A stretch of 25,974 nt of DNA from positions 1-25,974 of the IMG/VR virus record IMGVR_UViG_3300032322_001644. One strand, written 5' to 3'. A program made the position numbers and the translations under genes. This document shows positions 3,719 through 25,633 of the stretch, piece by piece. Position 1 is the first letter of the stretch. Every line of letters starts with the position of its first letter. This stretch comes from a virus. Below the pieces are notes generated by a model. That model ran no database searches. It saw only the letters and a program-made list of their open reading frames with translations, and had not been told where the DNA came from.

Positions 3719-4572
3719 AGGCCGCATCTTCTGGGATGCAGACGCACATCGCCGGCGATGCGCTCACGCTTGCCACCATGTGGCGCATCGTCCGCAAGGA
3801 CGGCGAGGTCTTTACCTTCACCGACCACGACCGCGATATCGTCTATGCCGGTGAAACCTACGTTGCCGCGCTGGGCTACCGCCGCGCTGCAGTGTCGTCG
3901 GGCGCCGAGCTGGCGGTCGACGAGACGGAGGTCGAGGGGCTGCTTGATTCGGCATCGATCAGCGAAAGCGACTTGCGCGCGGGCGTTTGGGACGGCGCCG
4001 CGGTGCGCATCTTCTTGGTGAATTGGGCAAACACGGCGGACGGCGAGATTAAGGTGCGCCGCGGGCGTTTGGGCGAGGTCACGCTGCGCGACGACGGCAG
4101 TTTCCGCGCTGAGTTGCGCGGCTTGGCCCAGCCGCTGCAGCAGACCATCGGCAGCCTGTATCAGCCCGAATGCCGGGCAGACCTCGGCGACGCCCGCTGC
4201 AAGGTGGATCTTGCCTTCGGCGCGGGCTGGACGCAGGAAGCGGCGATCGACACGGTGACCGACAGCGTCACGCTGGTCATGGCCCCGGGCATCGCTGGCT
4301 TCGCGGACACCTACTTCACCGGCGGCGTGGTGACCTGGCACACCGGCACGAATGCGGGCGTGTCGCGCGAGATACTGGGCTGGGTGCAATCGACGCGCAC
4401 CCTGACCCTGTTCTCGCCGCCGCCGCTGCTGCCCGTGGCCGGCGACGTGCTGCGCCTTCAGCCGGGCTGCGACAAGCGCAAGGCCACCTGCCAGTCAGTG
4501 TTCAATAACTACCTGAACTTCCGCGGCGAGCCTTTCGTGCCCGGCGCGAATGCGCTGCTCGAGACGCCATGA
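3715..4572 (+). CDS. Tail hub protein, DUF2163 family, with Fe-S-type cysteines
   Basis: This 285-residue protein belongs to the DUF2163 family, the GTA hub protein and functional counterpart of lambda gpL. The N-terminal half (TMWRIVRKDGEVFTFTDHDRDI, then the LRDDGSFRAELRGLAQPLQQ region) is typical. Four cysteines, C153, C162, C252 and C259, form C-X8-C and C-X6-C pairs. As I recall it, this is the spacing of the cysteines that hold the [4Fe-4S] cluster in lambda gpL. The start is the ATG at 3715, overlapping the previous stop. It is followed by the NlpC/P60 gene with an ATGA overlap, the standard order for this module. Confidence 0.9.
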   Translation: MKAASSGMQTHIAGDALTLATMWRIVRKDGEVFTFTDHDRDIVYAGETYVAALGYRRAAVSSGAELAVDETEVEGLLDSASISESDLRAGVWDGAAVRIFLVNWANTADGEIKVRRGRLGEVTLRDDGSFRAELRGLAQPLQQTIGSLYQPECRADLGDARCKVDLAFGAGWTQEAAIDTVTDSVTLVMAPGIAGFADTYFTGGVVTWHTGTNAGVSREILGWVQSTRTLTLFSPPPLLPVAGDVLRLQPGCDKRKATCQSVFNNYLNFRGEPFVPGANALLETP

Positions 4573-4991: not shown

Positions 4992-7900
4992 ATGGCGCAG
5001 CTCGGTGTCGCGGGTGCGGGCGCAGTCATCGGTGGCGTCATCGGCACCTTCGCCGGCGGCAACACGCTGTTGGGGGCGCAGATCGGCTGGGCGATCGGCG
5101 GCGTGGCCGGCGCGCTGCTGTTTCCGCCGAAGGGGCCGGACACCACCGGACCGCGGCTCAACGACCTGTCGGTGCAGACCAGCGGCTACGGCGTGCCGAT
5201 CCCAATTGTGGCCGGGCGCACCAAGCTCGCCGGCAACGTCATCTGGAAGACCGACCTGCGCGAGACGGTGACGCGCCGGCGCCAGGGCAAGGGCGGCCAG
5301 ACCGCGCGCACGACCACCTACACCTATTCGCTGTCCTGGGCGGTGGGGCTGTGCGAATGGCTGATCCCGCCGACCTCGGCGCAAGTGCTGCGCATCTGGC
5401 TGGATGCGAAGCTGGTCTACGACGCCACCGGCGCCAGCGCGGTCGCGCAGATCCCGGGCCTGACCTGGCGCTTCCACGACGGGTCCGAGGATCAGCTTCC
5501 CGACCCGCTGCTGGCGGCGACGCTGGGCGCCGACGCGCCGGCGCATCGCGGCCTGGCCTATATCGTGTTCGATGACGTCCCGCTGGCCGAGTTCGGCAAC
5601 CGCATGCCGAACGTGACGGTCGAGATCAGCGCGAACACCACCAGCACCTTCCCGCAGGTCAACAGCGTGGCGCCTGCCGCGACGCTGTTCACATCCTCGC
5701 CTTCGAACCTGATCTACGCGAACCTCTGGCCCTCAGCGGTGGCGGTGGATTACGCGCGCGGGCGCGTCTACGAGGGGCGCAAGCGCACTGCGGGCGCCAC
5801 ATCCTCTGCCGACACGCTGATCCGTGTCTATGACCTGCTGACGATGCAGGGGATCGCCGAGTATTCGGTCGATCAGATCGTCGCGCCGGTCATGGGTGGC
5901 GCAGGCGGGCCGCCGAACGCCGCGCCGGGCGTGCTGCACATGGGCGCGGACGGCTTCCTTTACATGACCGGCGGCGGCAGCAACTTTGGCGGCGTACGGC
6001 CGCCGCTCTGGAAGATCGACCCCGACAGCATGCGGGCGGTGTCGTGGTTCGGCACGCGAACCGGGGACAGCTTCTTCCTGACCGATTCCGAGACCTCGCT
6101 CACCAACCCTCTTTCGATCACCTCGTTCCAGGTTCAGCGGCTGGGGGCGACGCCGCGGACCTTCGTCGTCGTGTCGTCCTATCGCTCCGCGATGTATACG
6201 GTGGATGCCGACAACACGACCGGTGCGCCAATGGCGTATGTCTGGGGGCGTGTTGGCTCTATTTCCCCGCCAGGCATCAGCAACGGCTACAGCATTCTTC
6301 CGTTGGCGTATGAGCATGCCATAGTCGCGGGGCGGCAGTCCGAACAAGGGACCGACGTGTATTGGGTTCAATCGAAATACGATCTGACCCCGAAGCGCGT
6401 CGAGGTTGTCCGCCACACCTACGGCGCCGGCGCGGCAAGCCTTGGCGGCGGGGCGGCCATGGGCATCGTGCAGCATCCGAAAGTCACCATCGACATCAAT
6501 GCTGAGGTCGATGCTTCGGCAAGCCGCATCGTCCTGCAGTCCGCATGGTGGGATGAGGCCGACAATACGCTGGTCATCACCATTAGTGGTGCCGGAGGTC
6601 CAGCCTCGACTTGGTCGCGCTTTTCGACCTTCAAGGTGGCGCCGGACGGCACCGTCCTGTGGACGCTGGTCGACCACGCGATGCCAGCGCGCAGCGATGC
6701 GCGCGGCGACATGCGCCGGGTCTTCGGCGGTCTCTGGGGCTTGGGCGCCGGCCCTGTCTTGTTTCCCGCGACCGGCGATGTGCTGCTCTCGCCCGCCGGA
6801 GGCGACTTCAACACGCTGTCGTGGGTGGACGAGCAGCAGGCGGTGATCGGCTTCCGGGCATCGGGAGGTGGCGCGCAGGAGATTGCCAAGCGTTTCCTGG
6901 TGCGGTCGTCCCCGAACAATCTGACGGTGGGGGCGATTGTCACTGCGCTATGCGAGCGCGCCGGGCTATCGGCGGCCGACATCAACGTGAGCGCGCTTTC
7001 GGACAGCATCCGGGGCTACACGCTAGGCCGGCCGACCTCGGCGCGCGATGCGATCACGCCGCTGGGCGCGGCCTGGCAGTTCGATGCCGTGGAGCAGGAC
7101 GACATATTGGTCTTCCGCAAGCGCGGCGGCGCCCTTGTGGCAACCCTGGATTACGCCGACCTGGTGCGAGAAAGCCCGGACGGCATGGTCATGGAGGAGC
7201 AGCGTGTGCAGGACGCCGACCTGCCGCGCGAGCTGACCGTGCGCTACATCGACATCGACCGCGACTACGAGCAGAACGCGCAAAGCGCGCGGCGGCCGTC
7301 TGCGCCGATCGCGGTCACAGGCGCCAATGCGTCCTCGGGCTTCGACCTTCCGATCCCACTGACGGCGAACGAGGCCAAGACGGTCGCGCGGAGAATGATG
7401 ACCGGCACCTGGCGGGAGCGGACCCGCATTGTCGCGGCGGTCGGCCCGCAGTTCCTGCGCCTGGTGCCGACCGACCCGGTCATCGTCACGACGCGGGACG
7501 GCGCTGCCATTCGCTGCCGCGTTATCACCGTGCAGCTCGGCGCGAACTGGGTGACGCGGGTCGAGCTGGTGACGGAGGACGCCGCCACCTACGCGCTGAC
7601 CGCTGCAGGTGACAACGGGGAGGCGTACCAGCCGGGCAGCATGCCGGCGCCCTACTTCGCCCGCCTGATCCTGCCGGACATGGCGCTCGTGTCCGACGCG
7701 GACGACACGGGCGGCAACGGCCTGCGGGAGTATGCCGCAATCGGCGCCTATGACGGGCAGACTTTCCGCGGCGTGGATCACTTTCGCTCGCCCGACACTG
7801 CCGTCTGGACGCGCCTCGACCGCGCCGTGCGCAGTGTCACCTGGGGTGCCGTGAGCGCGATCAGCGGCACCCCCGTCTCGCCCTGGCTGTGGGACGAGAT

Positions 7901-16782: not shown

Positions 16783-17012
16783 GGCGCCACCGCCAGCGCC
16801 GCGCGCATCGCCATCGCCTGCCACTTGTCCAGCACGATCTGCTTCCGGCCGCCAGGCTGGATCACCAGAAGCCCGTCCGGCCGCGTGGCGATGCGCAGCG
16901 GGTCGCCGTCGATGCTGATGAAGGTGCCGACGATGGTGATCGCCGGGTCGGTGCTGGCCGGCGCGTCCGCCTGGGTGTCGGCGGGCTGCTCGGGGGTCAG
17001 ATCAAGGGTCAC
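16779..17012 (-). CDS. Small hypothetical protein
   Basis: This 77-residue protein has an acidic, probably disordered start (LTPEQPADTQADAPAST) followed by a small beta domain (ITIVGTFISIDGDPLRIATRPDGLLVIQPGG). The GTG start at 17012 overlaps the upstream stop (GTGA). Function is unknown. Confidence 0.7.
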   Translation of the reverse strand: MTLDLTPEQPADTQADAPASTDPAITIVGTFISIDGDPLRIATRPDGLLVIQPGGRKQIVLDKWQAMAMRAALAVAP

Positions 17013-17182
17013 TGCTCGTTCTCCGGGTTGTGGGTGGTGCAGACGCCAGCCGCCGCCGCGATCTCGTGCAGCAGGTCGGCAGGCATTCGGGGGAGCGCCG
17101 GCTTTGGCGCGGGCCAGTCGCGCAGGGTGCGCGCGACGGCGGCGGTCACGGCGTCGCAGGCCGCGGTCAGGGGGTCGGTCAT
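17009..17182 (-). CDS. Small hypothetical protein, first gene of leftward operon
   Basis: This 57-residue protein begins MTDPLTAACDAVTAAVARTLRDWPAP. It is the first gene of a ten-gene chain in which every junction overlaps. GAGGAA lies seven bases before the ATG at 17182, a better ribosome binding site than that of the genes behind it, which fits its role as the entry point for ribosomes. A 47-bp divergent gap with a palindrome lies upstream. Function is unknown. Confidence 0.7.
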   Translation of the reverse strand: MTDPLTAACDAVTAAVARTLRDWPAPKPALPRMPADLLHEIAAAAGVCTTHNPENEQ

Positions 17183-17203
17183 GCGCTTTCCTCGTTGACA
17201 GAT

Positions 17204-17218
17204 AGGGCCAACGGCCCT
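17204..17218. promoter_or_regulatory. Palindrome in the divergent gap, candidate operator
   Basis: AGGGCC-AAC-GGCCCT is a perfect inverted repeat in the 47-bp space between the leftward gene starting at 17182 and the rightward gene starting at 17230. TTGACA at 17195-17200 is nearby but has no good -10. The HTH protein encoded at 17438-17659 is a possible ligand (inference). Confidence 0.45.
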
Positions 17219-17229
17219 GCACAGAGGGC

Positions 17230-17460
17230 ATGAGCAAGCGCACCTACGACCCCCGCCCCGTCTCCGTTCCTGCGCTTCCCGCCGGCGCCGTTGGGTTCCT
17301 GTCCCGCCGAACCGATCGGCCAGAGCGGCTTGCGCTGTTCCACGCCGATGGCACGCTGTCGAGCACCTTCGCCATCTGGGAAGGTGAAACGGACATTGCC
17401 GCGGCGCTGCAGGCGGCTGGCATGACGCTGCTGCCCGGTGGTGCCGTTGTCCGCGGCTGA
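17230..17460 (+). CDS. Small hypothetical protein
   Basis: This 76-residue protein begins MSKRTYDPRPVSVPALPAGAVGFLSRR and has a beta-rich middle (RLALFHADGTLSSTFAIWEGE). It reads rightward between two leftward operons. AGAGGG is only one base from the ATG, so initiation is either weak or leaderless. It overlaps the downstream HTH gene by 23 bases in another frame, which suggests coupling. Function is unknown. Confidence 0.65.
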   Translation: MSKRTYDPRPVSVPALPAGAVGFLSRRTDRPERLALFHADGTLSSTFAIWEGETDIAAALQAAGMTLLPGGAVVRG

Positions 17461-17659
17461 ATTCCGCGCGGCCCTCGCCGCGCTGGGGCTTTCGCAGGTC
17501 GCTGCAGCCGAAGCCTTGGAAGTGGACGCGCGCACGGTCAGGCGCTGGGCGCTTGGCGAGCGCGAGGTTCCGGGGCCGGTGCGCGTGGCGCTGCGGCTCA
17601 TGGCTGTTCCTCCGCAAGGATTTGAGCCACCGCCGCAACCTCGTCGCGCGCCTCGATAG
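17438..17659 (+). CDS. Helix-turn-helix regulator (XRE-like)
   Basis: This 73-residue DNA-binding protein has an HTH at about residues 7-50: EFRAALAALGLSQVAAAEALEVDARTVRRWALGEREVPGPV. The spacing is that of small XRE-type phage regulators. It begins at GTG 17438 or the adjacent GTG 17441, inside the previous gene, with no strong ribosome binding site. The Pro/Arg-rich tail runs 62 bases into the end of the opposite-strand gene 17598-17804. It may control the divergent promoter region at 17183-17229 (inference). Confidence 0.8.
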   Translation: MVPLSAAEFRAALAALGLSQVAAAEALEVDARTVRRWALGEREVPGPVRVALRLMAVPPQGFEPPPQPRRAPR

Positions 17660-17804
17660 GGCCGACCGCGCAGCACGCGCGCAGCCCCTTCACTTCCCAC
17701 GCGGTTTCCGTTTCCGCCGCCATCTGGTCGGCGTCGTCCTGCGTAAGCCACTCGGTCTCTTCCGCAGAGCCGTCGCGAAGGATGCACAGGCAAAGCCACA
17801 TCAC
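17598..17804 (-). CDS. Small acidic hypothetical protein
   Basis: This protein of about 67-68 residues begins MWLCLCILRDGSAEETEWLTQDDADQMAAETE and contains three cysteines near its two ends. The start is either the GTG at 17804, which overlaps the upstream stop as GTGA, or the ATG at 17801. Its tail overlaps the HTH gene on the other strand by 62 bases. It is the last gene of the operon that starts at 19463. Function is unknown. Confidence 0.62.
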   Translation of the reverse strand: MMWLCLCILRDGSAEETEWLTQDDADQMAAETETAWEVKGLRACCAVGPIEARDEVAAVAQILAEEQP

Positions 17805-18427
17805 GCGGCCTCCCGCGTGGCGGCGGTCGCCGCGATGGACAGCAGCAAGTCACGAAACTCGACCGGCGTGGCGTTCCGCTTGGCCTTCTTGTCCTTGCCG
17901 CCGATCATGGAAACCAAGCCCTTGCGGCGGGCATATTCGTAGCCGTGGCGCTCAACCATTTTCGGGTCTAGGCGCTGCTCCCCCTTGCCCCAGCGCAGCG
18001 ACGGCAGATCGACGCCGTGCGCATAGAGCCACGTCGCCTTGCGCGCCTCGTGACCGTAGAAGCCTTGTTCCACGTAGCAGGTCCACCCACCAACCAGGTC
18101 GGCGGCGTGCCACCCGCCTGAGCGCGGCGGCACCGTCAGCCCGTGCGCCGCCCATGCGCGGCTGTCGGCCGGGTGCTCCAGCACGCCACCCCAGCGGCGC
18201 ACGGCGGCAAGCGCGGCGGCAAAACAGCCGCCGTCGTCGCCTAGCGCGTATTGGTGCGGCTTGCGCGGCGACCCGTGCCAGAACCGCCCCCAGCGTTCGC
18301 ACGGCGGATGCGCCACGACAGGATGCGGGCCAGCGTAGCGGCGCGCGTCGCGGACTTCATCCCAGGCGTCTACATGCGGCAGGCCGGCATAGACGCCCGC
18401 AGGCTCAACGTAGAGCCCCGCGATCAC
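17801..18427 (-). CDS. PPC-motif protein, possibly C5 DNA methyltransferase-related
   Basis: This 208-residue protein begins MIAGLYVEPAGVYAGLPHVDAWDEVRDARRY. It has HPPCERWG with C43, WGGVLEHPADSRAW around residues 79-92, and QGFYGHEARKATWLYAHG. PPC followed by an E-H/N-P/V segment and a late K-T-L segment recalls motifs IV, VI and VIII of cytosine-C5 methyltransferases. However, the protein is short, has no target-recognition domain and shows no clear SAM-binding FxGxGG. I recall similar unannotated phage and prophage proteins. It may be a minimal methyltransferase, a nucleotide-modifying enzyme or a non-catalytic relative. The GTG start at 18427 overlaps the upstream stop (GTGA). Confidence 0.82.
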   Translation of the reverse strand: MIAGLYVEPAGVYAGLPHVDAWDEVRDARRYAGPHPVVAHPPCERWGRFWHGSPRKPHQYALGDDGGCFAAALAAVRRWGGVLEHPADSRAWAAHGLTVPPRSGGWHAADLVGGWTCYVEQGFYGHEARKATWLYAHGVDLPSLRWGKGEQRLDPKMVERHGYEYARRKGLVSMIGGKDKKAKRNATPVEFRDLLLSIAATAATREAA

Positions 18428-18696
18428 GCCGCCACCCTCTCCGCATCGGCGAGCTCGCGCCGGATCCGCAGCACCAGCGCATTCGCGCGATCCCACGCGC
18501 CGCTCGTGTGCGCGTGGTCGTCGGACCACTCGAGGTCGCGCAAGGCCTGCTCGGCGCGCGCCAGGTCAGCGCGCAGGTCGGTGATGTGCGGCGGGTCGCA
18601 GTCCCGGCAGGTCCAGCGATCGTCGGCAACCCGCGCGTTGCGCGTGCGGCAGCCGCAGGCGTGGCACTCGCCGTGAGGGGACCAGGGCTCGCTCAC
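18424..18696 (-). CDS. Zinc-ribbon protein
   Basis: This 90-residue protein has an N-terminal zinc ribbon: CHACGC at residues 11-16 and CRDC at about 30-33 give two CxxC knuckles. A charged helical C-terminal domain follows (ITDLRADLARAEQALRDLEWSDDHAH). The GTG start at 18696 overlaps the stop of the tiny upstream gene. A DNA- or protein-binding role is likely, and the target is unknown. Confidence 0.75.
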   Translation of the reverse strand: MSEPWSPHGECHACGCRTRNARVADDRWTCRDCDPPHITDLRADLARAEQALRDLEWSDDHAHTSGAWDRANALVLRIRRELADAERVAA

Positions 18697-18761
18697 AGCG
18701 CCGCCCCCAGCATCAGCACGCCGATCGCAGCGGCCAGCAGGACGCCGATGATCTCGGTCAT
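18693..18761 (-). CDS. 22-residue membrane micropeptide
   Basis: The sequence MTEIIGVLLAAAIGVLMLG plus AAL is essentially one membrane helix. The ATG at 18761 shares its first base with the previous TGA (TGATG) and its own TGA overlaps the next GTG, so both junctions are coupled. AAGGCGGGG lies upstream. It is small enough for automatic annotation to miss. Function is unknown. Confidence 0.55.
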   Translation of the reverse strand: MTEIIGVLLAAAIGVLMLGAAL

Positions 18762-18976
18762 CACAGCCCCGCCTTCGCCAGCGCGCGCTGGGCTGCCTGC
18801 GCAGTCGGGCCGTCGCCTTGCCCGATGTCGTCGAGGCGCGTGAGGCAGGAGCGCAGGGCGTCGGCGAGGATGACGCCGCGGCACCGCATGTCGGCCAATC
18901 CCGCCAGCGCCTGTGCCGCCTCGGCCTCGCGCATGTCGGCGTCGGGGCTGCTGAAGACGGGCAGCGGGGCGCTCAC
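18761..18976 (-). CDS. Small hypothetical protein
   Basis: This 71-residue helical protein begins MSAPLPVFSSPDADMREAEAAQALAGLADMRCRGVIL. The GTG start at 18976 overlaps the upstream stop (GTGA). There is no membrane segment or recognised motif; two cysteines flank the central helix. Function is unknown. Confidence 0.68.
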   Translation of the reverse strand: MSAPLPVFSSPDADMREAEAAQALAGLADMRCRGVILADALRSCLTRLDDIGQGDGPTAQAAQRALAKAGL

Positions 18977-19197
18977 GACGCGCGCCCCTCGGCGGCGGCG
19001 ATGGCTTCACGGGCGCACCGCTCGATTTCTTTGAGTTCCAGAACGTAGATATCAGCCATCGCTGAATACCGCTGCGACACGCGCGTTGTGTCGTCGCGCA
19101 TCCACTCGAACCGCTTGCGCAGTTTTTCCGCCAAGTCGCGGGCGCCCTGCGCGCGGCCTTCGCTAAAAGCCTGCTCAACCACGTCTGGGGTGCTCAC
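18973..19197 (-). CDS. Small helical hypothetical protein
   Basis: This 74-residue charged, helical protein contains EGRAQGARDLAEKLRKRFEWMRDD and YVLELKEIERCAREAI, probably a coiled coil. The GTG start at 19197 overlaps the upstream stop (GTGA); upstream in-frame sequence is Cys/Arg-rich and antisense-like. Function is unknown. Confidence 0.7.
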   Translation of the reverse strand: MSTPDVVEQAFSEGRAQGARDLAEKLRKRFEWMRDDTTRVSQRYSAMADIYVLELKEIERCAREAIAAAEGRAS

Positions 19198-19463
19198 AGC
19201 ACACCTTCCGGGGCAACGCCCTGAAACTCGCAATCAACCTTCACGCAGGGGTGCAGTTTGTGCCGCGCCTTGAACACGCGCGCCGCCCGCATGCGACCGC
19301 GCTTCGCCAACACGTCGAAGCCGGCATTCAGCGCGCCGGGCGCAAGGTTCAGCACGACGTCGTCCGTAATCTTGCCGTGGCGGCAGACGAACCACGCGAC
19401 GTGGCGCGCGGCTTCCTGGCTGATTTCTGGGGTGGTGTCGGGCTGGGTGTCGGTGCTGGTCAC
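19194..19463 (-). CDS. First gene of the repressor-controlled leftward operon, hypothetical
   Basis: This 89-residue protein begins with an acidic Thr-rich stretch (MTSTDTQPDTTPEIS). It continues with EAARHVAWFVCRHGKITDDVVLNLAPGALNAGFDVLAKRGRMRAARVF, which has the look of a small winged-helix or HTH DNA-binding domain. The start is the GTG at 19463, five bases after a strong CGGAGG. It occupies the position of lambda N (first leftward early gene behind the operator), but no arginine-rich RNA-binding motif is seen at its start. Function is unknown. Confidence 0.75.
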   Translation of the reverse strand: MTSTDTQPDTTPEISQEAARHVAWFVCRHGKITDDVVLNLAPGALNAGFDVLAKRGRMRAARVFKARHKLHPCVKVDCEFQGVAPEGVL

Positions 19464-19484
19464 TGCGGCCTCCGGGTTGATGCC

Positions 19485-19501
19485 GCTTAGTATCACTGAG
19501 C
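19485..19501. promoter_or_regulatory. Operator OL1, GCTTAGTATCACTGAGC
   Basis: This 17-bp inverted repeat (GCTTAG-N5-CTGAGC) overlaps the -10 of the leftward promoter. Two other sites of identical geometry lie at 19525 and 19926. Confidence 0.75.
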
Positions 19502-19516
19502 AGACGCCGCTTGCAA
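19489..19516 (-). promoter_or_regulatory. Leftward early promoter (pL-like)
   Basis: On the minus strand, TTGCAA (19516-19511) lies 16 bases before GATACT (19494-19489), each matching 4 of 6 consensus bases. The expected start is about 20 bases before the GTG-initiated gene at 19463. One operator covers the -10 and a second lies just upstream of the -35. Confidence 0.6.
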
Positions 19517-19524
19517 GCAAAATC

Positions 19525-19541
19525 GCTCAGGCAGACTAAGC
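19525..19541. promoter_or_regulatory. Operator OL2, GCTCAGGCAGACTAAGC
   Basis: This 17-bp site has the same 6-5-6 form and starts exactly 40 bp from OL1, about four helical turns, so the two lie on the same DNA face. It sits just upstream of the -35 of the leftward promoter. Confidence 0.75.
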
Positions 19542-19589
19542 AATCTGCGCATGGCCACAGCCAGCACGCCGGCGCGGCCGGCGCTCAGC

Positions 19590-19866
19590 TCAGCGGGCTA
19601 TGGTGCGGGAGAAGCTGAGCGACCCGTTCTGGTCATGCGCGACGCGGTAGGTGACGCGCTGGCCTGCCGCCAGGCGCGCCTCACGCTCGACCAAACCGGC
19701 GAAACAGCCTGAGCGCGCGCCAAGGATCACCTCGCCGGCCGGGATCTGGCTAAGCGCCGGGGCTTTTGCCCAGGCGCTTAGCCAGATCCCGTTGCGACAA
19801 GCCCAGCCGCCGCCGCTCAATGCGGATCACGTCGCCGACGTCCGCGCGCTGAAAGCCTTTTTCCAT
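19590..19866 (-). pseudogene. XRE-type phage repressor, frameshifted or recoded
   Basis: The ATG at 19866 opens a frame that encodes MEKGFQRADVGDVIRIERRR, then LGLSQRDLAKRLGKSPGA, and stops at TAG 19752-19750 in the middle of a typical HTH. Helix 2 is complete, but the recognition helix is cut. One base further on (+1, or a lost GC pair), the frame continues as LSQIPAGEVILGARSG to the TGA at 19592-19590. Joining the frames restores SPGALSQI, a normal XRE recognition helix, and gives a protein of about 90 residues. The gene faces cro in the position of cI. It may be inactivated, or expressed by recoding. An ATG at 19944 is possible but would place the start codon within an operator. Confidence 0.62.
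19741..19790. repeat. 50-bp near-perfect inverted repeat at the repressor frame break
   Basis: The arms GGGATCTGGCTAAGCGCC (19741-19758) and its exact reverse complement (19773-19790) are 18 bp each. After one mismatch a further four pairs close a TTTT loop (19764-19767). The arms lie within the HTH-coding segment, and each contains GCTAAGC/GCTTAGC. No U-tract follows, so this is not a standard terminator. Confidence 0.92.
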
Positions 19867-19868
19867 GC

Positions 19869-19885
19869 GCTTAGCATGCCGATGC
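19869..19885. promoter_or_regulatory. Imperfect operator-like site
   Basis: GCTTAG-CATGC-CGATGC has one perfect half and a second half matching 4 of 6 positions. It lies directly in front of the repressor ATG, where an autoregulatory site would be expected. Confidence 0.4.
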
Positions 19886-19925
19886 GGCCCGTAAGCCGCA
19901 CTTAGCAATTCGCTTGCATTCAGGC

Positions 19926-19942
19926 GCTCAGTGCGGCTAAGC
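19926..19942. promoter_or_regulatory. Operator OR, GCTCAGTGCGGCTAAGC
   Basis: This 17-bp site has the same half-sites and 5-bp spacer as OL1 and OL2. It lies 7 bp before the cro-like start codon, between the divergent repressor and cro genes. No good -35/-10 pair was found for the rightward promoter. Confidence 0.72.
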
Positions 19943-19949
19943 ATGGCGC

Positions 19950-20162
19950 ATGGAACCCATGGCCCTAATCCGCCAGCGCCGCGGCCTCATGGCGAAGATC
20001 GCGCAGGAACTGCACATCACGCGCGCCGCGGTCAGCACCTGGCGCCGTGTGCCCGCCGAGCGCGTCGTCGCCGTCGAGCGCATCACCGAGATCCCGCGGC
20101 ATCAGCTGCGTCCTGACCTGTATCCGCAGCCGACCGCGTCGCATGCGCTCGAGGTTGCCTGA
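19950..20162 (+). CDS. Cro-like regulator (YdaS/Cro family)
   Basis: This 70-residue HTH protein reads RQRRGLMAKIAQELHITRAAVSTWRRVPAERVVAVERIT and then HQLRPDLYP, the C-terminal signature of YdaS/Cro-type phage proteins. It lies opposite the repressor and immediately behind operator OR, so it is the expected rightward early repressor. Starts at ATG 19950 or ATG 19959 are both possible; neither has a strong ribosome binding site. Confidence 0.86.
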   Translation: MEPMALIRQRRGLMAKIAQELHITRAAVSTWRRVPAERVVAVERITEIPRHQLRPDLYPQPTASHALEVA

Positions 20163-20163
20163 G

Positions 20164-20301
20164 ATGACCCAGATGCGCGCCGTGTCCCTTCGCGGCGCGC
20201 TGCGGCCGGCGGGGAGTTTCCCTCCCCTGGGCTATTCCGCCGGCCGCTTCAACGCTTCGTCCTCTTTCCATGCCAACAGCATCGGGGACCACGCGCCATG
20301 A
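20164..20301 (+). CDS. Small hypothetical protein (45 residues)
   Basis: This open frame begins one base after the cro-like stop and reads MTQMRAVSLRGALRPAGSFP onward. Its TGA overlaps the next ATG (ATGA), which supports it. The DNA also forms strong hairpins (20202-20247), so this could be a leader or regulatory segment that happens to be open. Function is unknown. Confidence 0.4.
   Translation: MTQMRAVSLRGALRPAGSFPPLGYSAGRFNASSSFHANSIGDHAP
20202..20247 (+). other. Strong GC hairpin behind cro
   Basis: GCGGCCGGCGG (20202-20212) and CCGCCGGCCGC (20237-20247) are perfect 11-bp inverted arms, with a further GGGAG/CTCCC pairing possible inside. No T-tract follows directly. It lies in the position of lambda tR1/nutR, so a conditional transcription signal is possible. 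Confidence 0.5.
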
Positions 20302-20612
20302 GCGCACCGGAAAAGGCTTCCATAATCGCGGCGCGCGAATACATCGCCGCCGTTGTGCGCCAGCATGGCGTCAAGCGCGGCCTCGACGTCGCAGCGCAGC
20401 GCCTGGGCATTTCTGAGCGATGGGCGCGCGGCATCCATTACAGCGAAGCCGCCTTCGTCTCGCACGCGCTCGATCGGCGCGCCCAAGCGGCGCGCAACGA
20501 ACTCGCCCGCCAGCGCGCCGCGCAGCTGCGCGCGGAACTGGCCGAATTGGAGGAGCCGCATGGCGGTCTGGTTCTGGAAGAGTCTGTCGGCGTGGGCGGC
20601 GCGGCGCGGTGA
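20298..20612 (+). CDS. Small helical protein, possible HTH
   Basis: This 104-residue protein contains AREYIAAVVRQHGVKRGLDVAAQRLGISERWARGIHYSE, which has the spacing of a helix-turn-helix (LDVAAQRLGISERWARGI). A long Ala/Arg/Glu coiled-coil segment follows. It is coupled to its neighbours (ATGA upstream, GTGA downstream). It is probably a DNA-binding early protein; the family was not recognised. Confidence 0.7.
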   Translation: MSAPEKASIIAAREYIAAVVRQHGVKRGLDVAAQRLGISERWARGIHYSEAAFVSHALDRRAQAARNELARQRAAQLRAELAELEEPHGGLVLEESVGVGGAAR

Positions 20613-21595
20613 GCAGTTCCTCGACCTCTCTGACTGGTGCCTCGTCCGAGCGCGAAACGCCCGGCGACGGCGCTATCCCTTCGAAAACGACTAGCCGCCG
20701 CCGCGGCGGGCTGCGACGCGACTTCACCCCCACCGCCGACCACATCATCCGCCTTGCGCATTCCGGCTTTCTGAAGGTGCATGAAGCCCGCCGCCTCATC
20801 AGTTGCGGCAATGCGGCGTTCTACCGTCGCATGGCCGAACTCGGATTGCCGCTGCACGGCGGCGCCAAAGGCCTTCGCAGCCCCATCCCGGCAGAAGCTG
20901 GCGATCCGTCCCGGCCGGCTGCCGGGCGCACTACGGCGCCGCGCGATAGCGGTGCTGGGCTTTCCTCCCTGCCCAATACGGGCCACCTCAACCCCGCCGC
21001 GCTGCCGCAAGACGGCGCGGCGGGGTCTTTTCCGACCGAGATCGCCATTCCCCGCCAGCGCGCCGGCGTCGCTTCAGCGACTGCGCAGCAGGGCATCGCG
21101 CCTGGGCGCGTTAACCCAGCTTCCTCCCGGAAATCGCAAACTGCGGGCGTCGCCGGCGCGCCCTGCGCATCTTCCGAGCGAATCCACCGCGGCGGCGCCG
21201 GCAACTTCCGCGTCTTTACCGCAGAGGAAGACGCGCTGATCCGGCGCGTCGCCGCCGGCGAGGTGCCTCGTGATCGCGCCTGCCGCGAGCTGCGCACCAC
21301 CTACACCAAGCTGCTCGCACGGCTGCGCGATCTCGGCTGCGAGGTGAAGCAGTACGTGCGCCACAAGCCCACGCCGCTCGCCGACTGCCCGCCTGGCTGG
21401 ATCCCGATCGCGCACGGCGGCGCCGGCATCTGGCGCGAGTACGAGGGCAGCCCGGTCAGCATCGAAGAGGCTCGCGCGCTGAGCGAGCGCGGCCTCGGCA
21501 CCATGGCTCAGAAGCGGATCGACGGAGGCTTTGACCTCCTGTTCCGCGCCCGTCACCCCACCGTCTCCCGAGAGGACACATGGCAGAGAACCTGA
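20609..21595 (+). CDS. Two-domain putative regulator with GcrA-like segment
   Basis: This 328-residue protein has a GTG start that overlaps the previous stop. Residues ~30-85 (FTPTADHIIRLAHSGFLKVHEARRLI followed by AAFYRRMAELGL) and ~203-255 (FRVFTAEEDALIRRVAAGEVPRDRACRELRTTYTKLLARLRDLGC) both look like short helical DNA-binding domains. The second resembles the N-terminus of GcrA/Myb-like regulators. The ~115 residues between them are Pro/Ala/Ser-rich and low in complexity, and their DNA contains a terminator-like hairpin. The C-terminal ~75 residues contain PPGWIPIAHGGAGIWREYEGSPVSIEEARAL. Function is inferred only. Confidence 0.72.
   Translation: MSSSSTSLTGASSERETPGDGAIPSKTTSRRRGGLRRDFTPTADHIIRLAHSGFLKVHEARRLISCGNAAFYRRMAELGLPLHGGAKGLRSPIPAEAGDPSRPAAGRTTAPRDSGAGLSSLPNTGHLNPAALPQDGAAGSFPTEIAIPRQRAGVASATAQQGIAPGRVNPASSRKSQTAGVAGAPCASSERIHRGGAGNFRVFTAEEDALIRRVAAGEVPRDRACRELRTTYTKLLARLRDLGCEVKQYVRHKPTPLADCPPGWIPIAHGGAGIWREYEGSPVSIEEARALSERGLGTMAQKRIDGGFDLLFRARHPTVSREDTWQRT
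20992..21031 (+). terminator. Intrinsic terminator-like hairpin inside a coding frame
   Basis: CCCCGCCGCGC (20992-21002) pairs perfectly with GCGCGGCGGGG (21015-21025) and is followed directly by TCTTTT. This is the form of a Rho-independent terminator on the plus strand, but it lies inside the open frame 20609-21595. It may be a conditional stop in the rightward early transcript. Confidence 0.6.
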
Positions 21596-22149
21596 CCGCC
21601 GCGACCAACGGCCCGCCGACGATGAGCGCCACGGACTTCGCCGCGCTGAAGGCCGAGCTCGTGCTTGCCACCGTCGCGAAGGACAGCGCCGTCGCCAAGG
21701 TGCGCGCCATCCGCGCGCGCATGGAGAAGGCCGGCTGCGACATGAAGGCGCTGGACCTGCATCTGCGGCTGTCCAAGATGGAGGACGCTGTCGCCGAGAT
21801 CTACTTGCGCAACGCCGGCCGCTACAACGCCTGGGCCGGCAAGCCGATCGGCTCGCAAGGCGCGCTGTTCGGCAGCGATGACGCGCCGGCGCCGAGCGAG
21901 AAGGCCGCGGAAGAGCTGCGCGGCGCGGTCGCCTACGAGGACGGCTACGTCGCAGCGCAGGGCGGGCAGACCCATGAAGACTGCCCATACGAGGCCGGCA
22001 GCTTCTTCGCTCAGCGGTGGTCGCAGGGCTACGTCGCCGGGCGCGCGGTCTTCGATGAGATCCGCGCCGGCAAGCCGCCCAAGGCCAGCAAGACGGGCAG
22101 CCGCAAGCCGGGCCGCCGGGCTCAGCGGCAGGAGCGCGCCGCAGCGTGA
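21580..22149 (+). CDS. GapR-like N-terminus joined to RMF-like C-terminus
   Basis: This 189-residue protein starts at ATG 21580 with GAGAGG upstream, 16 bases inside the previous gene's end. Residues ~23-72 (LKAELVLATVAKDSAVAKVRAIRARM followed by GCDMKALDLHLRLSKMED) recall the coiled-coil and KAL----RL-K pattern of DUF2312/GapR proteins. Residues ~117-157 (AYEDGYVAAQGGQ followed by CPYEAGSFFAQRWSQGYVAGR, with C135-P136-Y137) match the G-(10)-CPY-W--G layout of ribosome modulation factor. A basic tail follows (RKPGRRAQRQER). It could bind DNA or ribosomes. Both resemblances are by eye. Confidence 0.75.
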   Translation: MAENLTAATNGPPTMSATDFAALKAELVLATVAKDSAVAKVRAIRARMEKAGCDMKALDLHLRLSKMEDAVAEIYLRNAGRYNAWAGKPIGSQGALFGSDDAPAPSEKAAEELRGAVAYEDGYVAAQGGQTHEDCPYEAGSFFAQRWSQGYVAGRAVFDEIRAGKPPKASKTGSRKPGRRAQRQERAAA

Positions 22150-22637
22150 GCTGGACGCCGGGCATGGTGCTTTGCCTTGACCTGGCGCGCCGGCTGGGCT
22201 GGTGCGCCGGCGTGCCCGGCGCGCGCCCGCACTACGGCGTGGTGGAGCTGCGCGGCCACACGCACGGCGCAGTCTACGCCGCGCTGGTCGATTGGATCGA
22301 AGACGCCATCCGCCTGCACCAGCCGGCCGAGATCGTGGCCGAGGCGCCGCTGGTGCGCGGCCAGCACCAAGGAATGGATGCCGGCCGCCTGGCGCTGGGC
22401 ATGATCGCTCACCTCGAGCTCGTGGCGCACGACCACGGGATCCGGCTGCTCGAGGAACACGTCAGCCGCACCCGCAAGGCAGTCATGGGCCGCGGGAATT
22501 TCGCTAAGGGCACGGCGAAGGATGAAGTGCTCGCGTGGTGCCGCGCGCAGGGCTACGAGCCGCCTGACCACAATGCCGCCGATGCGGTGGTGCTCTGGCG
22601 GCATGTCGAGATGCTGCGGCAGGGCAGGGCGGCATGA
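22146..22637 (+). CDS. RuvC-like Holliday junction resolvase
   Basis: This 163-residue protein has a RuvC/RNase H fold. Candidate metal ligands are D12 in VLCLDLARRLGW, E66 in IVAEAPL, and D141 and D146 in PDHNAADAVVLW, giving the D-E-D-D set. It probably resolves branched DNA produced by replication and recombination before packaging. The GTG start overlaps the previous stop (GTGA). Confidence 0.88.
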   Translation: MSWTPGMVLCLDLARRLGWCAGVPGARPHYGVVELRGHTHGAVYAALVDWIEDAIRLHQPAEIVAEAPLVRGQHQGMDAGRLALGMIAHLELVAHDHGIRLLEEHVSRTRKAVMGRGNFAKGTAKDEVLAWCRAQGYEPPDHNAADAVVLWRHVEMLRQGRAA

Positions 22638-25075: not shown

Positions 25076-25633
25076 ATGAGCGATTTCACGCCCCCCAGTG
25101 CGACGCCGACAGGCGAGACGCACGGCGGTAGCATGGCGGACCCCTGGCACGTCATTGAAACCGAACACCGCCAGGAAGCACTCGCCCGCGACAGCATCCA
25201 GGCCCTCGGCTTTACCGCCTTCCTGCCCATGGTCGCTCGCCCTCTCGGCCGGGCCACCGTCCTGCAGCCCCTCTTCCCGCGCTACCTGTTCGCCATGTTC
25301 GATGCTGGCAGCGATTGGGGCGGACTGCGGCGCGCCCGAGGTGTGGTGGACGTGCTGAGGGCGGTGGGAAGCGCAGCGCCGGCAGTCGTGGACCATCGCC
25401 GCGTCGAGGCCATCATCGCCCACTGCTCGGCGAGACAGGTGGTCGACACCGATCCCAGGCCGGCACTCATCGCCGCCGGCATCACCGTCCGCGTGACCAC
25501 CGGGCTCTGGGCTGACCACCGCGGCGTCTGCCTCTGGTCCTCAGCCGAACGTGTGGCTCTGCTGCTCGACGTCATGGGCCGCGAGCTGCGGATGATAGTC
25601 CCGCGGCGCAGCGTCACGGAGGAAGCGACATGA
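25076..25633 (+). CDS. NusG/RfaH-like transcription elongation factor
   Basis: This 185-residue protein has an NGN-type domain (ADPWHVIETEHRQEALARDSI, LGFTAFLPM, LQPLFPRYLFAMFDAGSDW, RRARGVVDVLRAVG). Its C-terminal KOW-like region is ITVRVTTGLWADHRGVCLWSS followed by RVALLLDVMGRELRMIV. Such proteins bind RNA polymerase and reduce pausing or termination. Lying between replication and packaging genes, it sits where lambda has Q, so it may act as the late antiterminator. The start is ATG 25076 or ATG 25133; the latter begins nearer the family start and follows a TTGACA (25050-25055) whose -10 is weak. Confidence 0.86.
   Translation: MSDFTPPSATPTGETHGGSMADPWHVIETEHRQEALARDSIQALGFTAFLPMVARPLGRATVLQPLFPRYLFAMFDAGSDWGGLRRARGVVDVLRAVGSAAPAVVDHRRVEAIIAHCSARQVVDTDPRPALIAAGITVRVTTGLWADHRGVCLWSSAERVALLLDVMGRELRMIVPRRSVTEEAT

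Follow-up and report, generated by a model that had tools for sequence, protein, structure and literature searches.

The question raised by this locus is why a phage repressor gene should stop inside its HTH, exactly at an almost perfect inverted repeat, while the neighbouring frame stays open beyond the stop. The locus lies in a 25,974-bp linear IMG/VR virus record, the whole of which (the window) was analyzed. Based upon comparison with its nearest relative, we consider it likely that the locus is a deletion scar carrying a short inverted template-switch (snap-back) copy of the quasi-palindrome class, and that neither gene product works any longer.

Remnants of two genes

On the minus strand the HTH frame reads MEKGFQRADVGDVIRIERRRLGLSQRDLAKRLGKSPGA and then meets TAG at 19750; counted from the ATG at 19866 it has 38 codons, the last residues being ...LSQRDLAKRLGKSPGA. 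The preliminary description had proposed an HTH frame cut off by TAG inside the HTH, and this was borne out. The product matches columns 1-24 of the 55 columns of Pfam HTH_3, that is, the first half of the domain, helix 3 and all later parts of the repressor being missing. The complete 55-column HTH_3 with its recognition helix, which a functional XRE/HTH_3 repressor needs, is absent from this remnant.

The second frame, +1 relative to the first and open to 19590, had been taken for the continuation of the repressor. A +1 frame open for about 50 codons does exist, but in a profile search it matched a different gene, covering columns 81-133 of the 136 columns of the lipoprotein family PHROG 890. 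Judged by homology, it encodes the last third of a separate lipoprotein rather than the rest of the repressor. This remnant consists of 51 codons, IPAGEV...TIAR followed by a stop (19593-19745 from IPAGEV onwards), and lacks the signal peptide and the first ~86 residues. The signal peptide with lipobox and the full-length domain required of a PHROG 890 protein are missing from it.

The nearest relative, and the sole good match to the read-through product, is IMGVR_UViG_3300048597_000375 (referred to as L003). It encodes an intact 156-aa HTH repressor, which spans HTH_3 columns 1-53 and is read straight through with no shift, and, 120 nt downstream, an intact 137-aa lipoprotein (PHROG 890, E 2e-23). 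Each of these genes matches one side of the break only: the repressor remnant is 74% identical to the N-terminus of the L003 repressor over 38 aa, and the second frame is 73% identical to residues 87-137 of the L003 lipoprotein over 51 aa. Relatives had been suggested earlier as the place to look for an intact frame; L003 possesses one.

The lipoprotein remnant also aligns with the lipoproteins of phiAH14b and of a more distant phage, L011. In the latter the repressor is followed by a small ORF and then by an intact lipoprotein gene, the order being that of L003, with the HTH at 33097 and PHROG 890 at 33923 of its contig. All six relatives scanned carry a complete or almost complete PHROG 890. 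The PHROG 890-family lipoprotein also occurs as a stand-alone gene in other neighbourhoods, as in HK639 and phiAH14b, and therefore it is not a repressor domain.

L003 was the one close relative found. Megablast of positions 17000-22500 against phage records gave no match, and the L003 repressor, scanned against viral contigs, retrieved the L003 contig alone; adding the lipoprotein to the scan yielded one weak locus only (L010). A search of bacterial genomes for the lipoprotein found nothing, and no viral relatives were found for the neighbouring gene at 19194-19520. Relatives detected through the cro-like gene share cro, and none of them except L003 has the repressor-lipoprotein pair. As a separate observation, L011:2509-4082 carries cro, the repressor, the small ORF and the PHROG 890 lipoprotein in a row, a layout which suggests that the lipoprotein may be expressed from the prophage alongside the repressor and is a possible exclusion gene.

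Ratios of dN/dS against L003 (Nei-Gojobori) were 0.19 for the repressor remnant, 0.25 for the lipoprotein remnant and 0.09 for the cro-like gene, all of them rough values given the short pieces and the high synonymous divergence. The low ratios of the two remnants imply that selection acted on both genes during most of the divergence, and therefore that the lesion, if real, is recent. The repressor frame also stays open 5' of the ATG at 19866 and reaches a further ATG at 19944. In this stretch (19867-19944, minus strand) dN/dS was about 1.2, against the low ratio after 19866, and therefore 19866 is probably the true repressor start; the upstream stretch probably carries regulatory DNA.

Table 1. 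Coordinates of the remnants, the seam and the neighbouring control elements in the window
Feature	Position	Strand	Evidence
5' remnant, phage immunity repressor gene	19750..19866	-	HTH_3 match, L003 identity, dN/dS
3' remnant, lipoprotein gene	19590..19745	-	PHROG 890 match, L003 identity, dN/dS
Junction	19741..19753	-	DNA alignments of both flanks to L003
Inverted repeat (hairpin)	19740..19791	.	Arms 19740-19763 and 19768-19791, TTTT/AAAA loop
Divergent cro-like gene (YdaS/P22 Cro family), intact	19950..20162	+	Pfam PF15943, E 8e-12
Operator-like 17-bp palindrome GCTYAG-N5-CTRAGC, copy 1	19485..19501	.	L003 equivalent 5318-5334
Operator-like 17-bp palindrome, copy 2	19525..19541	.	L003 equivalent 5278-5294
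Operator-like 17-bp palindrome, copy 3, between repressor and cro	19926..19942	.	L003 equivalent 4250-4266

The seam and the inverted repeat

On the repressor side, DNA homology extends from 20091 to 19754 (L003 4101-4438) and ends about halfway through the HTH, while homology to the lipoprotein gene begins at 19748 (L003 5094). Absent from the window are thus ~655 bp of L003, comprising the second half of the repressor and the first two thirds of the lipoprotein, a length measured on a relative that is 73-74% identical in the two protein pieces and is not the phage's own parent. In place of the missing DNA stands TTAGC (19753-19749), for which neither parent gene has a match. Joined to CAGATCCC, it forms the exact reverse complement of repressor codons at 19778-19790, so that the inserted bases TTAGCCAGATCCC are a reverse complement of upstream repressor codons, as template switching requires. 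At the level of the alignments, the comparison shows a deletion relative to L003, a fusion of two genes and an inverted copy at the seam.

The bases CA.ATCCCGG (CA.ATCCC) are common to the junction and the L003 lipoprotein gene, and the point of return is ambiguous over ~8 nt because of this sharing. The second switch would lie somewhere in 19748-19741, an ambiguity such as micro-homology would give.

The repeat itself had been described as a near-perfect inverted repeat of 50 bp with 18 perfect pairs. It is real and beyond chance, with 19 perfect pairs in place of 18. Each arm has 24 nt, the arms being 96% complementary around a loop of 4 nt, and the stem is made up of 19 perfect pairs, one mismatch and then 4 pairs. 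Elsewhere in the window the longest perfect arm was 12, and in 300 Markov windows it was at most 17. Plain deletions joining the two L003 genes, simulated 5000 times with 0-8 random bases of filler, gave no perfect palindrome longer than 10 nt across the junction, against the 19 observed. A 121-nt RNA around the hairpin was predicted to fold with -82 kcal/mol (z = -6.9).

So stable a stem might have a function of its own, as a terminator, operator or recombination site, the gene fusion being incidental. Against this, no T-run was present at the hairpin on either strand and no terminator-like match was obtained, which rules out an intrinsic terminator; the 17-bp operator motif is not contained in it, which rules out an operator. 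A repeated element was likewise ruled out, since no further copy of the arm was found in the window and a 21-nt piece of the minus-strand arm had no exact match in the viral contigs searched. We give this explanation practically no weight.

The stability of the stem is also what a programmed +1 frameshift would call for. In that explanation, which the preliminary description had offered as a means of setting the repressor level, the hairpin shifts ribosomes at GCT-TAG to give a longer repressor, and the geometry of stop codon, stem and a +1 frame open for ~50 codons fits. It found no support, for the frame beyond the stop belongs to the C-terminus of the lipoprotein, which L003 and L011 each carry as a gene apart from the repressor. 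The shifted product would moreover be without most of the HTH (columns 30-55), and the L003 repressor is read without any shift; a programmed shift is therefore exceedingly improbable.

The residues SPGALSQI had made the shifted reading look like a restored repressor. This is a coincidence, because the second frame is the lipoprotein C-terminus; reading through the break extends the HTH_3 match merely from column 24 to column 29 of 55, a gain of 5. The codons for ALSQ come partly from the last of the repressor-homologous DNA and partly from the antisense copy of the DLAKR codons. The second frame resembled the remainder of a repressor because HTH codons copied in antisense chanced to spell ALSQI.

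Proposed origin of the scar

Template switching at the palindrome had also been put forward earlier, as a correction of two bases that knocked out the repressor. The class of event stands; its extent was a loss of ~655 bp with an inverted copy. A quasi-palindrome correction of only two bases, leaving the repressor otherwise intact, would share the mechanistic class and would account for a hairpin longer than chance, but repressor homology is not resumed after the break, the next homologous residues being those of the lipoprotein. Such a two-base indel is contradicted by L003, and there is hardly any likelihood left for this explanation.

For the deletion scar with a snap-back copy, the following course may be envisaged. 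During copying of the repressor gene the nascent 3' end ...GGGCAAAAGCCCCGGCGC would fold back on its own short imperfect hairpin, the stem being GCGCC-T-GGGC-AAAA-GCCC-C-GGCGC. The folded strand would then copy itself for ~5-13 nt (TTAGCCAGATCCC), a length bounded by comparison with L003 rather than to the base, and would re-anneal at the ATCCCG of the lipoprotein gene, ~655 bp downstream. Re-annealing there would both remove the intervening DNA and extend the hairpin to its 19 perfect pairs. The window sequence that forms the inner stem GCGCC-T-GGGC/GCCC-C-GGCGC is homologous to the L003 repressor gene, which stands in here for the phage's own parent sequence. The single stem mismatch (T.C) sits in this inner part, belonging to the parent gene, which is what the snap-back model predicts.

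Mutation by quasi-palindrome template switching is well established for E. coli (PMC7202029). The locus resembles the mutations described by the Ripley model and the E. coli lacZ QP reporters (PMC7202029) in that a nascent strand would template itself at an imperfect inverted repeat, and in that the repeat would have become longer and more perfect and the frame is broken. It differs from them in the return of the strand, which here would be ~655 bp downstream rather than adjacent, giving a large deletion besides the inverted copy (PMC7202029). Template switching is also known to create perfect hairpins, and in the four-point-model switches a reverse-complement copy beside its source forms a long perfect stem, as here; the cases taken from that source are RNA genes with compensatory changes, in contrast to a phage gene with a large deletion (PMC8794818). 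Among the papers searched, no directly comparable phage example was found in which quasi-palindrome template switching accompanied a deletion. The kind of mutation is ordinary, and its scar is unusually legible.

A chimera made in the library or the assembly, with the deletion and the inverted copy arising during amplification or assembly and the phage itself intact, is considered unlikely, a grading that is a judgement rather than a computed value. In its favour, the record is an assembled IMG/VR contig for which read support is not shown, both remnants resemble recently functional genes, with low dN/dS and no further stops, and the operators are conserved. A recent true mutation, however, would show equally low dN/dS. 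The scar further needs two switches, one to the nascent strand and one back to the original strand ~655 bp on, and therefore a single fold-back chimera does not yield it; the chimeric molecule would also have had to dominate to enter a consensus contig. Because two strand switches within ~14 nt in a consensus contig have to be explained, a chimera is less likely than a true mutation. If the scar is real, it would be a clear natural example of a two-step template switch yielding both a hairpin and a deletion. The case also shows how the tidy story of a frame broken at a hairpin can mislead.

Cro, operator-like sites and immunity

The 38-aa peptide is without a recognition helix and therefore should not bind DNA. 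The lipoprotein remnant, having neither start nor signal peptide, would be non-working as well. The divergent cro-like gene is ~90% identical to that of L003 over 61 aa. Exactly three copies of the motif GCTYAG-N5-CTRAGC are present in the window, and L003 has three at corresponding positions, a number reached by none of 100 and 200 shuffles. The three palindromes are likely the operator set, two of them preceding the left operon and the third separating repressor and cro.

Should the sequence be real in the phage population, lysogenic immunity would be lost while Cro and the operators remain, and the scar suggests a phage no longer able to establish immunity. Clear or virulent phage mutants arise with repressor deletions. 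The locus is like these mutants in that the immunity repressor would be inactivated and cro and the operators are left; it differs in being known from a contig and not from a cultured phage. The phage may have turned virulent. The contig, itself probably a fragment, yielded no tyrosine integrase. The region might even be a recurrent fragile site where snap-back deletions repeatedly remove the repressor in this lineage, with temperate and virulent forms existing side by side in the population; this is regarded as very unlikely.

Two further genes were noted in the window. At 17438-17659 the plus strand encodes a second small XRE-like HTH protein, not known to be a repressor, amid genes that lie on the minus strand. 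Positions 25076-25633, close to the contig's right end, encode a phage transcription antiterminator (PHROG 6386, E 8e-12), which by eye appears NusG/RfaH-like.
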